DNA of 64,000 nt, taken from Anaerolineales bacterium (GTDB taxonomy: Bacteria > Chloroflexota > Anaerolineae > Anaerolineales > UBA11579). A model generated the notes under the pieces. That model did not search any database. It was given only the letters and a program-made list of their open reading frames with translations, and was not told the DNA's origin. The stretch spans positions 248,001 to 312,000 of the forward strand of contig JAHBVE010000001.1 in assembly GCA_019637675.1 (NCBI GenBank). The letters are read 5' to 3'. The stretch's first letter is position 1. Each line of letters starts with the position of its first letter. Of this stretch, positions 32,939 through 37,313 are shown one piece after another. Made by a program: the position numbers and the translations under genes.

Positions 32939-33149
32939 GGAAGCGCGCCTGGCTGCGTTATGTGTTCCACGAATGGCAGGTGATTTAAAAAAGCGATGCC
33001 ATCAGCCGTTCCCCTCGAGCTGATGGCATGAACTATGTAAGAACGAAAAACCTGGTTAGGTTATACGAGGGAATGTCCTATATTTGAATAGGCGATAGTG
33101 TTTAGAAAATAGACATTTGTACTGGGCATCTGTGGAGGAGGGCATAGGA

Positions 33150-33854
33150 ATGAATAGTCAATTGCAGGCCAAAAAGAAACTTCGTGTCGCTGTTCTGGAA
33201 GATCATCCTCCGGTGGTGGACGGCTACACGTACCGCCTGTCCAAATATCCCAATATAGAGTTGGTGGCCTCGGCCCGCAACGGGGAGCAGCTGGACGAAT
33301 TGCTTAAACTGCACACGATCGATGTGCTCATCCTGGATGTTCTTGCGCCGGCGCGGGAGGGCACCGAAGCGCCGTATCCGCTGTTCAACGTGATCCCTCG
33401 CTTCCGCAAGGATCACCCTGAAATGGCGATCCTGATCATCTCGGGCCACAAGCAACCCACCCTGATCCGCTCGGTGATGGAAGCCGGCGCAAGCGGTTAC
33501 ATCATCAAAACTGAGGCGGCTGCCTCCGAGCGCCTGGGTGAGATCATCCTCTTGTTGGCTGACGGCGGCATTTTCCTCTCGGAGCAAACCGCGGCTGCGC
33601 TTGCCTACCCGGGCGGCAGCGAAGACATTGAAATGCTGACTGACCGCCAGCGCGAAGTGCTTTCGTTGTGTGCAGCCAACCCGGGGATGACCACCAATGA
33701 TCTGGCCGGATTGCTGAGTATCGCCCCAACCACGGTGCGCAATACGCTCTCAGATTCTTACAAGCGTTTGCGTGTCAACAACATGACGGCCGCGGTGCTG
33801 AAGGCGCGTGACCTGGGCTTGATCACCCCCATGGGTGATGTGTACCCGGGCTAA
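33150..33854 (+). CDS. ComA-like response regulator (receiver plus LuxR HTH)
   Basis: 234 residues from the ATG at 33150, which has GGAGGAGGG upstream. The receiver domain (about 11-135) has acidic LEDH (E17, D18), phospho-acceptor D63 in DVLILDVLA, S98 in LIISGH and K120 in GYIIKTEA. The LuxR-type HTH (about 165-230) reads LTDRQREVLSLCA, TTNDLAGLLSIAPTTVRNTL and YKRLRVNNMTAAVLKARDLG. This is the NarL/ComA class that pairs with HisKA_3 kinases such as the one at 35.1 kb. Its stop overlaps the convergent prenyltransferase stop by 4 nt. I infer it is the output of the ComQXPA-like system. Confidence 0.88.
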   Translation: MNSQLQAKKKLRVAVLEDHPPVVDGYTYRLSKYPNIELVASARNGEQLDELLKLHTIDVLILDVLAPAREGTEAPYPLFNVIPRFRKDHPEMAILIISGHKQPTLIRSVMEAGASGYIIKTEAAASERLGEIILLLADGGIFLSEQTAAALAYPGGSEDIEMLTDRQREVLSLCAANPGMTTNDLAGLLSIAPTTVRNTLSDSYKRLRVNNMTAAVLKARDLGLITPMGDVYPG

Positions 33855-34777
33855 GGATCGCCCTGCACGGAAGCAAATAGCTGCTCTATGGGCGCGATGG
33901 CATGATCCAAAATTTGCTGTAGCAGGCCCGGCTCCACCAACTGCATCTCATCCAGCATGCTTTGCAAGTGCTGGTGGCGCAGCACCAGCTCGTTCACGCA
34001 GTAGCTGATCGCCCCGCTGCTCACCAGGATGCGTTGCGCTTCGCGCAGCGCATCTGGCTGCTGCACCTGGCTGCGCAGTTCCACGAAGCGCTCACGCTGC
34101 GGGTGCGGCACTAGCTCGGCGAATAGCAGCGGCAGCGGGGCGCGGCCTTGCAGCCAGTCCACATTGGCCGGCACGGCCAGGCAATCATTCAGATCATCGT
34201 GAATTTGCATCACCTCGCCGAACAGCGCGCCAAACCGGCGCAGCTGCTCGGCCAGCAGCTGGCTGGCGCCGCCATACAGCCCGCCCAGGGTCAGGGCAGC
34301 AGCAAAATAGGGCGAGCTTTTGGCGCGGGCCACAGCCCAGTAGCCTTCCTCGCTATGATCGTTCTGCACATCCAGGTCCTGCCCGTAGGCCGTGTTGCCC
34401 ATCATCTGGCTCAGGGCCGCAGCCGCCAGGCCGGGGTGGGCGCAGGGGTACGCGTCGAGCATATGCTGGCCCAGGCTGTACAGCCCGGCGGCCAGGTTGG
34501 CGGCGCGGCCGGCGCCCACTTCGTTGTGCTTGCCGCGCGGATCTTCGTCCAAAATATCGTCGATCAGCAGAATGGCCATGTGGGCGCAGGTGATGGCCGC
34601 CACTGGTGGGATGGCCTCTTGCTCCTCGGCACCGGCGGCCACGCAGCCCGCGATCGGGAAGTCCCACGCCACGGGCGGCTTGCCCGTTGCCTGGCGTAGT
34701 GCGCTTTGCAGCAGCGGCCATTCGGCGGCCTGCGGCTGCTGCAGGAGCAGCTCAACGGCTGATTGATAAACGGTCAT
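33851..34777 (-). CDS. ComQ-like polyprenyl synthetase (probable peptide prenyltransferase)
   Basis: 308 residues from the ATG at 34777, preceded by GGAGGAG. The all-helical isoprenyl synthase fold keeps its metal motifs: LLIDDILDEDPRGK (first Asp-rich motif, D73-D79) and QIHDDLND (second, D194-D198). It also has YGQDLDV and AKSS (K153). It could be an ordinary geranyl or farnesyl synthase. Against that, it lies 53 nt after a tiny gene with a Trp-rich tail and next to a two-component pair, which is the ComQ arrangement. ComQ transfers a geranyl or farnesyl group to a Trp of the ComX precursor. No other terpenoid genes are nearby. Confidence 0.8.
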   Translation of the reverse strand: MTVYQSAVELLLQQPQAAEWPLLQSALRQATGKPPVAWDFPIAGCVAAGAEEQEAIPPVAAITCAHMAILLIDDILDEDPRGKHNEVGAGRAANLAAGLYSLGQHMLDAYPCAHPGLAAAALSQMMGNTAYGQDLDVQNDHSEEGYWAVARAKSSPYFAAALTLGGLYGGASQLLAEQLRRFGALFGEVMQIHDDLNDCLAVPANVDWLQGRAPLPLLFAELVPHPQRERFVELRSQVQQPDALREAQRILVSSGAISYCVNELVLRHQHLQSMLDEMQLVEPGLLQQILDHAIAPIEQLFASVQGDP

Positions 34778-34794
34778 CTCTCCTCCTCTAGTGT

Positions 34795-34823
34795 CAGGGC
34801 CGGCCACTTTGTGGCCGGCCCTG
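34795..34823 (-). promoter_or_regulatory. perfect 13-bp hairpin between the peptide and prenyltransferase genes
   Basis: CAGGGCCGGCCAC and GTGGCCGGCCCTG enclose AAA on the minus-strand RNA. There is no T run, so rather than a full terminator it probably stabilises the short peptide mRNA or reduces downstream expression. That would give more peptide than enzyme. Confidence 0.6.
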
Positions 34824-34830
34824 AATTTAC

Positions 34831-34980
34831 TTACTTGGCCTCGCCCCAAGAGTCCCAGGCCAGCTCACTGCGCACAGCCTGCACCTGCTCCAGGCTGGCC
34901 TTGGTGATGCGCAGCAGGGTTTGCAGTTGTTCCGCCACTGTATTGGCGGCAATGTTTGTGTAAAATGCTTGCATAGACAT
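34831..34980 (-). CDS. ComX-like prenylated-peptide pheromone precursor (49 aa)
   Basis: The 49-residue reading frame begins MSMQAFYTNIAANTV and ends SELAWDSWGEAK. AAAGGA lies about 9 nt before the ATG at 34980. There is no signal peptide, the middle is an amphipathic helix, and Trp occurs only in the last eight residues (W42, W45). This matches the ComX plan: a leader of about 45 residues and a short C-terminal peptide with a conserved Trp that ComQ prenylates, often as WG. It lies directly upstream of the prenyltransferase on the same strand and is divergent from the sensor kinase. Sequence identity to known ComX is low, as expected for this fast-evolving family, so the call rests on context and design. 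Confidence 0.72.
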   Translation of the reverse strand: MSMQAFYTNIAANTVAEQLQTLLRITKASLEQVQAVRSELAWDSWGEAK

Positions 34981-35084
34981 CGTAGTTTTCCTTTTCTAGT
35001 TGAACAAAATGGTGGTTTTTGCTGCTGGCGTTCCTGGCTAGTGCTCGATAGGCATCACCTCCCTGGCGTAAGCGCCGTGAAGCT

Positions 35085-37313
35085 ATGCACAGTAATCAAT
35101 CGGCTCACCCCCTTAAGCAATTCGTCCTGCCGGCCTTGGTGCTGTTTGTTTTGCTGCTGTTTACCTATGCGCGCTTCTTTTCTATTCCCTATATCGGTTT
35201 CCAATACGACACCAGCGGCGAGATCGTGGACGTATTCACCCCTGAGGCAACCGGCGCGCTGGCGCTGGGCGATATGCTGCTCGAGGCGAACGGCATCAAG
35301 CACAGTGAGTATCGAGACAGCCTGGCCAGGCCCTGGTTCGATCATTTGCATCCAGGGGATGTGATGGAGTTGCGGGTCAGCAGTGAGGGGGTGGAGCGTT
35401 CGCTTCAACTCGCTGTGCCGGGGTTCAACCTGCCAGAGTTCCTCGGGCGGCTGATCAACACCTGGTGGCTGAGCTATGTGTTCTGGTTTGCCGGCACCAT
35501 TATCTGTTTCCATGTCCGCCCGCAGGATGTGCGTTGGCGGCTGCTGGTAATGTTCTGCTACGTCACGGCCATATGGCTGATCGCAGGCTCACTTTCACGC
35601 TACGGCGTCTTTTTTGGTCCATACGTCTTCCGCATAGGCATCTGGCTGTCGCTGCCTGTGTATCTGCATTTGCACTGGAACTTTCCTCGGCCTTTCCCGC
35701 GCCTGCCCAACCTGGTGTGGGGGGCGTTGTATGCCGTAGGGATCGGGTTTGCCGCCTTGCAGGCGATGAGTCTGATTGACCCTGACTGGTTCGGGTACGC
35801 ATTGTTTGTGGCCGTGGTGGGTAGCTTGCTTATGCTGCTCGTGCGCTTTTTTACCAGCTCGGGTGAACGGCGTGAGGTCGGTTTCCTGCTAGGCGCATTT
35901 GCAGTCGCTTTGCTGCCTGCGCTCATGCTGGGCCTGGCGACTGCCCGCGAAGCTTTGCCGCTGCTTGGCAACGGCAGCGTGTTCTCGCTGGTTGCCTGCC
36001 CGGGCGCTTATCTGTATGTGGTGTACCGCCGCCAGCTTGGCGGCATGGAGTTGCGCGCCAACCGCCTCATCTCGGTGTACCTGTTCCTTGTACTGCTCTT
36101 CACCGGCACGCTGATCCTGGTGTCGTTCTTCGCACCCGGCTTGGAAAACCCGCAAGAGATCGCCATCGCCATTCTGGGCACGGGCTTGTTCGTATCCTTG
36201 TTCAACATCTTTGCGTTCGAGCGTTTTCAGCGCTTCGTCGAGCGCAGATTTCTCAATATCCCCATGCCGCCCGAGGGTTTGCAGCAGCGCTTTGCCAACC
36301 TGATCTCGACCAGCTTCACGCGCCAGCACCTGGGGCAGACCCTGATGGAGCAAGTGCTGCCCGCGCTGCTTATTCGCCAGTCGGCCTTGATGCATTTTGA
36401 TGGCCGGACACCGGAGCGCAAGCTGATCTATGCGCAAAACGTAACGGCGGAGCAAATGCCGGATGGCGAGGTATCACAGCAGCTGGTGCGGCCGGCGAAC
36501 TCGCCTGGCGTTCAGACGCCGGCCTGGGTCCAGTTGGCTATCCCTGTAAGGGCCGGAGAGCAGGTGGTGGGCTTGTGGCTGCTGGGCCGTAAAGACCCGG
36601 ATGACTATTACTCGTATTCGGAAACGAATTTGCTGAACTCGCTGGCTGACCAGATGGCGATCGCCTTGGTCAACATCGAGCAGGCCGATAGATTGCGCGT
36701 CTTGCACCAGCGTGACATTGACCAGCAGGAGGAGCGCCGCGCCTACCTGGCCCGCGAGCTACACGACGATGTGCTGGCCGGCATTGCCGATCTGGTTGCG
36801 CTGGCGGACCGCGGCAACCCGGATGCGCTGCAGGCACGCCATGAACAAGTGAGCGACCGCGTGCGCCAGCTCATCTACCAACTGCGCCCGGCCATGCTCG
36901 ATTTCGGCCTGTACCGTGCGCTGACGGAGCTGGTGGATAACCTGAGCCTGCGCTTAGGCGAGGATGTGCAGGTGTCCCTGATGCTGCCGGAGAGCGCCGA
37001 GATGTACGAGGGGCAAGTGGCGGAGCATGCCTATCGCATCGTGCAGCAGGCGGCTGAGAACGCCGCCAGCCGCGGGTTGGCTAAGACCATCATCATCAGC
37101 GGCCAACTGACCGCTGATGTGATCGACCTGCTGATCGAGGATGACGGCATCGGTTTCGATTTGGCCGGTACCAGCCTGCCAGACCTGCTGCACGCCAGCC
37201 ATTTTGGCCTGGCGAGCATGAACGAGCGCGCAGCTCTGATCGGCGCGTACCTCAGCATCCACTCAACACCCGGCGTGGGCACCCAGGTGCATCTGGAATG
37301 GCATAAACACTAA
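35085..37313 (+). CDS. ComP-like sensor histidine kinase with PDZ-like domain and multiple membrane spans
   Basis: 742 residues. One N-terminal membrane helix (about 13-30) is followed by an extracytoplasmic PDZ-like domain (about 38-112, GEIVDVFTPEATGALALGDM and LHPGDVMELRVS). Seven or more helices lie between 128 and 375. A cytoplasmic GAF-like region (about 400-530) leads to a HisKA_3 domain with H560 in ARELHDDVLAG. The HATPase has the N box QQAAENAASRG, G1 box DDGIGF and GLASMNERA. ComP of Bacillus has the same order of parts. The gene is divergent from the peptide gene and should phosphorylate the LuxR-type regulator at 33.2 kb. Confidence 0.87.
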   Translation: MHSNQSAHPLKQFVLPALVLFVLLLFTYARFFSIPYIGFQYDTSGEIVDVFTPEATGALALGDMLLEANGIKHSEYRDSLARPWFDHLHPGDVMELRVSSEGVERSLQLAVPGFNLPEFLGRLINTWWLSYVFWFAGTIICFHVRPQDVRWRLLVMFCYVTAIWLIAGSLSRYGVFFGPYVFRIGIWLSLPVYLHLHWNFPRPFPRLPNLVWGALYAVGIGFAALQAMSLIDPDWFGYALFVAVVGSLLMLLVRFFTSSGERREVGFLLGAFAVALLPALMLGLATAREALPLLGNGSVFSLVACPGAYLYVVYRRQLGGMELRANRLISVYLFLVLLFTGTLILVSFFAPGLENPQEIAIAILGTGLFVSLFNIFAFERFQRFVERRFLNIPMPPEGLQQRFANLISTSFTRQHLGQTLMEQVLPALLIRQSALMHFDGRTPERKLIYAQNVTAEQMPDGEVSQQLVRPANSPGVQTPAWVQLAIPVRAGEQVVGLWLLGRKDPDDYYSYSETNLLNSLADQMAIALVNIEQADRLRVLHQRDIDQQEERRAYLARELHDDVLAGIADLVALADRGNPDALQARHEQVSDRVRQLIYQLRPAMLDFGLYRALTELVDNLSLRLGEDVQVSLMLPESAEMYEGQVAEHAYRIVQQAAENAASRGLAKTIIISGQLTADVIDLLIEDDGIGFDLAGTSLPDLLHASHFGLASMNERAALIGAYLSIHSTPGVGTQVHLEWHKH

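Follow-up and report, generated by a model that had tools for sequence, protein, structure and literature searches.

Gene content and layout of the locus

The window analysed here is a 64,000-nucleotide stretch of the genome of an Anaerolineales bacterium (Chloroflexota; assembly GCA_019637675.1, contig JAHBVE010000001.1, positions 248,001 to 312,000). It holds four linked genes (Table 1), encoding a LuxR-type response regulator, a trans-isoprenyl-synthase-like enzyme (Q), a 49-residue peptide (X) and a sensor histidine kinase (P), which a first-pass annotation, made from the sequence alone, had matched to the prenylated-peptide signalling system ComQXPA. All four open reading frames (ORFs) were found as claimed, and so was their rearranged order: the regulator and Q converge tail to tail with a 4-nt overlap (regulator stop 33852-33854; Q stop 33851-33853, minus strand), X precedes Q on its strand, 53 nt separating the X stop from the Q start, and P diverges from X across a gap of 104 nt. 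X has its own upstream Shine-Dalgarno (SD) sequence. For Q, ATG 34777, preceded by the SD AGGAGGAG, is the most likely start, rather than the TTG of the longer frame in the ORF list.

Table 1. Coordinates of the locus and its candidate regulatory elements within the window.
Feature	Position	Strand	Evidence
LuxR-type response regulator (receiver plus LuxR-type helix-turn-helix (HTH), ComA-like), 234 aa	33150..33854	+	Pfam, conserved residues, synteny
Q, trans-isoprenyl-synthase-like enzyme, proposed peptide Trp prenyltransferase, 308 aa	33851..34777	-	Pfam, motifs, own clade, AF2 fold
X, putative pheromone precursor, 49 aa, MSMQAFY...SELAWDSWGEAK	34831..34980	-	dN/dS, W-x(1,2)-W conservation
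P, sensor histidine kinase, 742 aa	35085..37313	+	Pfam, hhalign to ComP
Intercistronic hairpin X/Q	34794..34824	-	RNA fold, similar stems in nearly all window-type loci
X/P divergent intergenic region, candidate operator or promoter	34981..35084	.	conserved GGGAGGTGATGCC
Regulator upstream region, candidate promoter or operator	33059..33149	+	conserved GGTTATACGA and ACATTTGTACT blocks

The peptide gene is coding and the four genes are conserved together

X (full sequence MSMQAFYTNIAANTVAEQLQTLLRITKASLEQVQAVRSELAWDSWGEAK) carries Trp at positions 42 and 45, within the C-terminal core AWDSWGEAK (W-x-x-W). Comparison with three close relatives gave dN/dS values of 0.06-0.08, i.e. the small gene is under purifying selection. 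A profile search with Q in genome contigs returned 55 loci, 49 of which have a similar-sized ORF just upstream of Q that ends in W-x(1,2)-W, 45 times behind an SD-like sequence. The same pattern was met once in 55 on the antisense strand, and in a mean of 1.0 (maximum 3) loci after dinucleotide shuffling. Several of the six misses still carry a Trp-ended ORF outside the strict pattern. Nearly all relatives with the window layout possess a 45-60 aa ORF with an SD upstream of Q, whose start is conserved (MxMQxFY) and whose variable end has Trp among its last residues. A conserved leader followed by a variable C-terminus around a Trp pair is what one would expect of a pherotype-forming signal.

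Among 10 further members of the genus, nine show the layout regulator> <Q <X P>; across the order it recurs in ∼20 genomes, other families included, at protein identities down to ∼35-45%. The four-gene set is therefore real and conserved together: its recurrence, the purifying selection on X and the counts of Trp-ended ORFs relative to their controls rule out chance. Related genomes, which the first-pass annotation had proposed to search, thus returned the same neighbourhood with a peptide that keeps Trp near its C-terminus.

X matched no Pfam or NCBIfam family and showed no NHLP leader, and its Trp residues are internal, not C-terminal. No similarity to four ComX sequences was detectable (hhalign probability 0.4 percent), and a genome search with PF05952, the ComX family, gave no match at a cut-off that even the B. 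subtilis control failed to reach. Because ComX is hypervariable and this control fell below the cut-off, the family comparison is a weak test. Direct membership of X in the ComX family, which we had considered, was not supported by these results. X would be ComX-like in its working, and by its sequence appears to belong to a new peptide family with a double-Trp core, outside Pfam and NCBIfam.

Q forms a clade apart from housekeeping synthases

Q matched Pfam polyprenyl_synt (5e-20) and carries both Asp-rich motifs, in accord with the first-pass annotation: the first (FARM) reads DDILDED and the second (SARM) HDDLND. Across the family these are DDxLDxDPRG and QIHDDLxD, D194, D195 and D198 being invariant, and both the RRG loop that binds isopentenyl diphosphate (IPP) and the GK..SD loop of GGPPS are absent. 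ComQ from four Bacillales plasmids has likewise lost the RRG loop, and its SARM is degenerate (GD/ND). According to the 2023 study of PalQ, ComQ has the FARM and lacks the SARM (PMC10853753); a 2026 review describes the SARM region as reused for Trp recognition in this group of enzymes (PMC13290415). The AF2 model of Q (pLDDT 95.8) shows a trans-prenyl-synthase fold by comparison with the PDB.

In our trees, Q formed one clade (100/100) apart from housekeeping GGPPS, the PalQ-like group and ComQ, which itself formed a clade (100/99). Q and ComQ sit on long branches and were not resolved as sisters. Profile-profile comparison of hidden Markov models (HMMs) put Q nearest to the Chloroflexota group that we call PalQ-like (E 1.8e-36), a group assigned by NHLP precursor and Trp end and not by direct alignment to PalQ; GGPPS (8.7e-22) and ComQ (4e-17) followed. 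The genome has one other synthase match (E up to 1e-3), a housekeeping GGPPS type ∼32% identical to Q. The comparison with housekeeping enzymes that the first-pass annotation had called for thus set Q apart, as a second synthase distinct from the housekeeping enzyme of the same genome. A housekeeping synthase beside a chance small ORF was rejected, given the separate clade, the coding status of X and the W-x(1,2)-W counts.

P resembles ComP over its full length

P matched Pfam GAF and HATPase_c; HisKA_3 was weak in P and was found in 23 of 25 relatives. The protein is laid out as a first transmembrane helix (TM1), an extracytoplasmic PDZ-like domain (∼36-112), a multi-TM part, GAF, a HisKA_3-like segment and HATPase_c. 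Of the histidine kinase with PDZ-like and multi-span sensor that had been predicted, the kinase and multi-span parts stood. The PDZ-like domain is more weakly suggested: four of the 25 relatives match PDZ_2, at an E value of 0.0018 at best, and the structure model shows a beta-rich domain spanning residues 36-112; the best matches in a fold search with this model cover the kinase part only and do not settle the PDZ assignment. When aligned with ComP of Bacillales (Anoxybacillus, Priestia), P matched over its full length (hhalign E 2e-32, 692 columns), and its sensor part alone gave E 3.6e-10, compared with 0.27 for a reversed ComP control. The regulator is of the predicted LuxR type (Response_reg 6e-13, GerE 7e-9); its phospho-acceptor D63, K120 and D18 are shared by all relatives and by ComA, and the switch residues are kept.

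Candidate regulatory elements

The gap separating the X stop from the Q SD holds a hairpin with a perfect 14-bp stem and a 3-nt loop (fold energy -31.4, z -8). Almost every window-type locus has a similarly strong hairpin of unrelated sequence at this position. Since no T-run follows it in the window, we read the hairpin as a candidate attenuator or processing site that would favour X over Q. The X/P intergenic region contains GGGAGGTGATGCC (X-strand orientation) near 35051-35063, with a core, GGAGGTGA, that is invariant in seven genus members. Upstream of the regulator, the blocks GGTTATACGA and ACATTTGTACT are conserved in six genus members. Searching the genome for a 33-nt pattern spanning the first of these blocks (33059-33091), with ≤ 3 mismatches allowed, gave no second copy; a recurrent operator was therefore rejected and no regulon is predicted. 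Also upstream of the regulator, at 32997-33029, there is an inverted repeat, TGCCATCAGC...GCTGATGGCA, whose arms are nearly invariant in six genus members and which looks like a terminator stem or an operator.

The sensor module accompanies X and Q across genomes

Matches to Q among 200 relatives were bimodal: 31 further genomes have a close relative (E < 1e-30), and most of the others only a distant housekeeping-type synthase. Over these 201 genomes the sensor is present in 31 of 32 with Q and in 23 of 169 without it (Fisher 1e-20, a value inflated by relatedness). In a second type of locus, X-Q comes with a receptor gene that is placed differently, in most cases following Q on its strand; the X peptides of this type (M.IEEFxxLL...GWGGWY and the like) align to window-type X (hhalign E 2.7e-8). 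The first ∼535 residues of these receptors, comprising the TM, PDZ-like, multi-TM and GAF parts, are shared with P, and the proteins end in HisKA_3, HisKA, hybrid kinase or HD-GYP outputs. As this sensor is joined to different outputs here, it is the sensor and not the kinase that accompanies X-Q, which makes it the best candidate receptor of X.

In several genomes without Q, the regulator and P are direct neighbours, ordered as in the window but lacking X-Q in the middle, so that X-Q looks like a cassette nested between the two that was gained or lost. A sensor kinase and a LuxR-type regulator are adjacent and codirectional, without X or Q, at L163, L164, L165, L166, L167, L172, L173 and L174. 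Other genomes lacking Q have the sensor beside a PalQ-like enzyme, once (L178) with an NHLP-type precursor ending in RWG, and in one (L168), X stands at the end of a contig. PalQ-like prenyltransferases occur in Anaerolineales at L071, L081, L086, L176, L177 and L178. Several of these loci adjoin NHLP-type precursors with Trp-containing ends (RGWM, KNWG, SWVL, RWG; two tandem copies at L086), and some of the enzymes sit beside a relative of the P-type sensor.

The Chloroflexota-like setting of the first-pass annotation proved right for the window, which is from Anaerolineales, but X-Q is not confined to this phylum: relatives of Q are found in Acidobacteriota, Bacteroidota and Myxococcota, paired with X in the first two and probably in the third. 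The four-part system is present in dozens of Chloroflexota genomes and partially in three other phyla. Bacteroidota X-Q pairs were seen at L136 (Aureisphaera galaxeae; two tandem X genes), L140 (Kordia) and L141 (Cytophagales).

The nearest named relative of the window genome is the Anaerolineales metagenome-assembled genome (MAG) ACE_CHL1 (CP075367.1), with a Q that is 96% identical. From the window ORFs, the locus reads as adjoining a putative rpmH-rnpA-yidC-jag cluster. Outside the genus, a fifth conserved gene, absent from the window's genome, lies directly downstream of and codirectional with the kinase (L094, L096, L097, L101, L104, L105, L106, L114, L115, L116). It encodes ∼380 aa with an N-terminal HTH (HTH_31) and about six hydrophobic stretches that probably span the membrane; its copies are 28-44% identical to that of L114. 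In another Chloroflexota MAG (L118:8604-12929), a window-type locus has as its neighbour an ORF resembling a polyketide synthase (reads IAIIGMACRYPGG), which the regulator may target.

Comparison with known systems

In a 2014 census, comQXPA-like loci were confined to Firmicutes (PMC4008528), the group from which the first-pass annotation, too, took ComQXPA to be described, and we found no report of one elsewhere in the open-access papers searched, with few subscription papers or preprints covered. The window locus shares with ComQXPA of B. subtilis and other Firmicutes the same four functions side by side: a short precursor with Trp near its C-terminus (ComX, 50-70 aa, within the last 5-10 residues; X, 49 aa, Trp 42/45); next to it, an enzyme of the trans-isoprenyl diphosphate synthase (trans-IDS) type with a FARM and without the RRG IPP loop; a ComP-like kinase with N-terminal TM, extracytoplasmic domain, multi-TM part, GAF-like domain and HisKA_3/HATPase; and a ComA-like receiver plus LuxR HTH regulator. 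It differs in its phylum, in its gene order (one-strand Q-X-P-A in Firmicutes), in an X sequence unrelated to ComX and with two Trp, in the hairpin between X and Q, and in that Q keeps the SARM that is degenerate in ComQ. The tree, with its long branches, did not join Q to ComQ. The proposed match to ComQXPA thus held for the parts list, Trp position, receptor and regulator, but not for the ComX family, the degenerate SARM or the one-strand order. The outcomes that the first-pass annotation had named as refuting this match did not arise. From the sequence comparisons, the peptide family, gene order, X-Q hairpin and receptors fused to other outputs (HD-GYP, HisKA) appear to be new relative to ComQXPA.

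PalQ/PalX/PalP of Paenibacillus alvei (PMC10853753) likewise combines a trans-IDS-like Trp prenyltransferase, a small precursor and a neighbouring histidine kinase, and the Q profile is nearest to the PalQ-like Chloroflexota group. However, PalX has an NHLP leader and a strictly C-terminal Trp, whereas the leader of X is short and of the MxMQxFY type, and the W-x-x-W of X is usually internal. With housekeeping GGPPS, IspA and IspB, Q shares fold, FARM and SARM; it differs in its separate clade, the loss of the RRG and GK..SD loops, and its linkage to X and the sensor.

Proposed mechanism and alternatives

Taken together, we consider it highly probable that the locus is a ComQXPA-like system for cell-cell signalling by a prenylated peptide. 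In this reading, X would be made in excess over Q by means of the hairpin between the two genes. Q would bind an allylic diphosphate (GPP, FPP or GGPP) at its first Asp motif and alkylate one of the two Trp in the W-x-x-W core of X. The leader would be cut off and the lipidated C-terminal peptide would leave the cell, where the PDZ-like and multi-TM sensor of P may detect it at the membrane. P would then phosphorylate the LuxR-type regulator and so alter transcription.

Several observations weigh against this interpretation. X lacks detectable similarity to ComX, and neither an export gene nor a target gene was identified for the system. Although kinase and regulator stay with X-Q across families, as expected if they belong to the locus, such pairs also exist without X or Q in some relatives; these loci may be receiver-only, or their sensor may have another ligand. 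The Bacteroidota pairs at L136, L140 and L141 have no receptor gene of the P-type family next to X-Q. Finally, Q keeps the DDxxD of its second Asp motif, lost in ComQ, and may thus be capable of diphosphate synthesis.

One alternative is that X-Q makes a prenylated, ribosomally synthesized and post-translationally modified peptide (RiPP) of mainly non-signalling use (antimicrobial, surface-active or metallophore-like), with P and the regulator controlling its production or sensing membrane effects. PalQ/PalX of Paenibacillus has been described as a RiPP cluster that also includes a histidine kinase (PMC10853753), and some X-Q pairs in Bacteroidota and in certain Anaerolineae stand without a neighbouring receptor. 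Against this, the window-type locus consists of peptide, enzyme, kinase and regulator only, with no adjoining transporter or immunity gene, and the ComP-like sensor tracks Q across genomes and has been joined to c-di-GMP-type outputs, among others, as one would sooner expect of a receptor that reads X than of a protein controlling how X is made. We regard a mainly non-signalling product as unlikely. It is far less probable still that Q is an ordinary isoprenoid synthase, e.g. for a short-chain diphosphate, with the small ORF and the kinase as unrelated neighbours: its fold and both Asp motifs are synthase-like, and Pfam and PDB label it a polyprenyl synthetase, but it forms a clade apart from the genome's GGPPS-type enzyme, the IPP-binding RRG loop is lost, X lies upstream in 49 of 55 loci and the sensor co-occurs with Q. 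We give equally little credence to X not being a substrate at all, i.e. to X as a small regulatory protein or to direct sensing by the kinase of an isoprenoid made by Q. The modification of X is a prediction, and members of the genus conserve X well along its entire length, not just at the end; yet W-x(1,2)-W is near-universal at the very C-terminus of otherwise variable tails, and the layout matches ComX/ComQ and PalX/PalQ, pointing to Trp as the substrate.

Prenylated-peptide signalling thus remains our preferred reading, and there is a fair, roughly even chance that the system deserves a class of its own. This class would comprise a double-Trp precursor family, a prenyltransferase clade retaining the two Asp motifs, and a portable receptor module (PDZ-like, multi-TM, GAF) on histidine kinase, hybrid kinase or HD-GYP outputs; it would span at least two phyla with receptor and four with X-Q, and include receiver-only genomes that possibly eavesdrop. 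If the proposed working holds, lipid-tagged peptide signalling would operate in the mostly uncultured Chloroflexota and reach into Acidobacteriota, Bacteroidota and Myxococcota. A single sensor module with several outputs would offer a direct route to the binding partners of prenylated peptides, and peptide prenyltransferases would gain new substrates in the double-Trp precursors. The receiver-only pairs would make signal cheating or eavesdropping testable.

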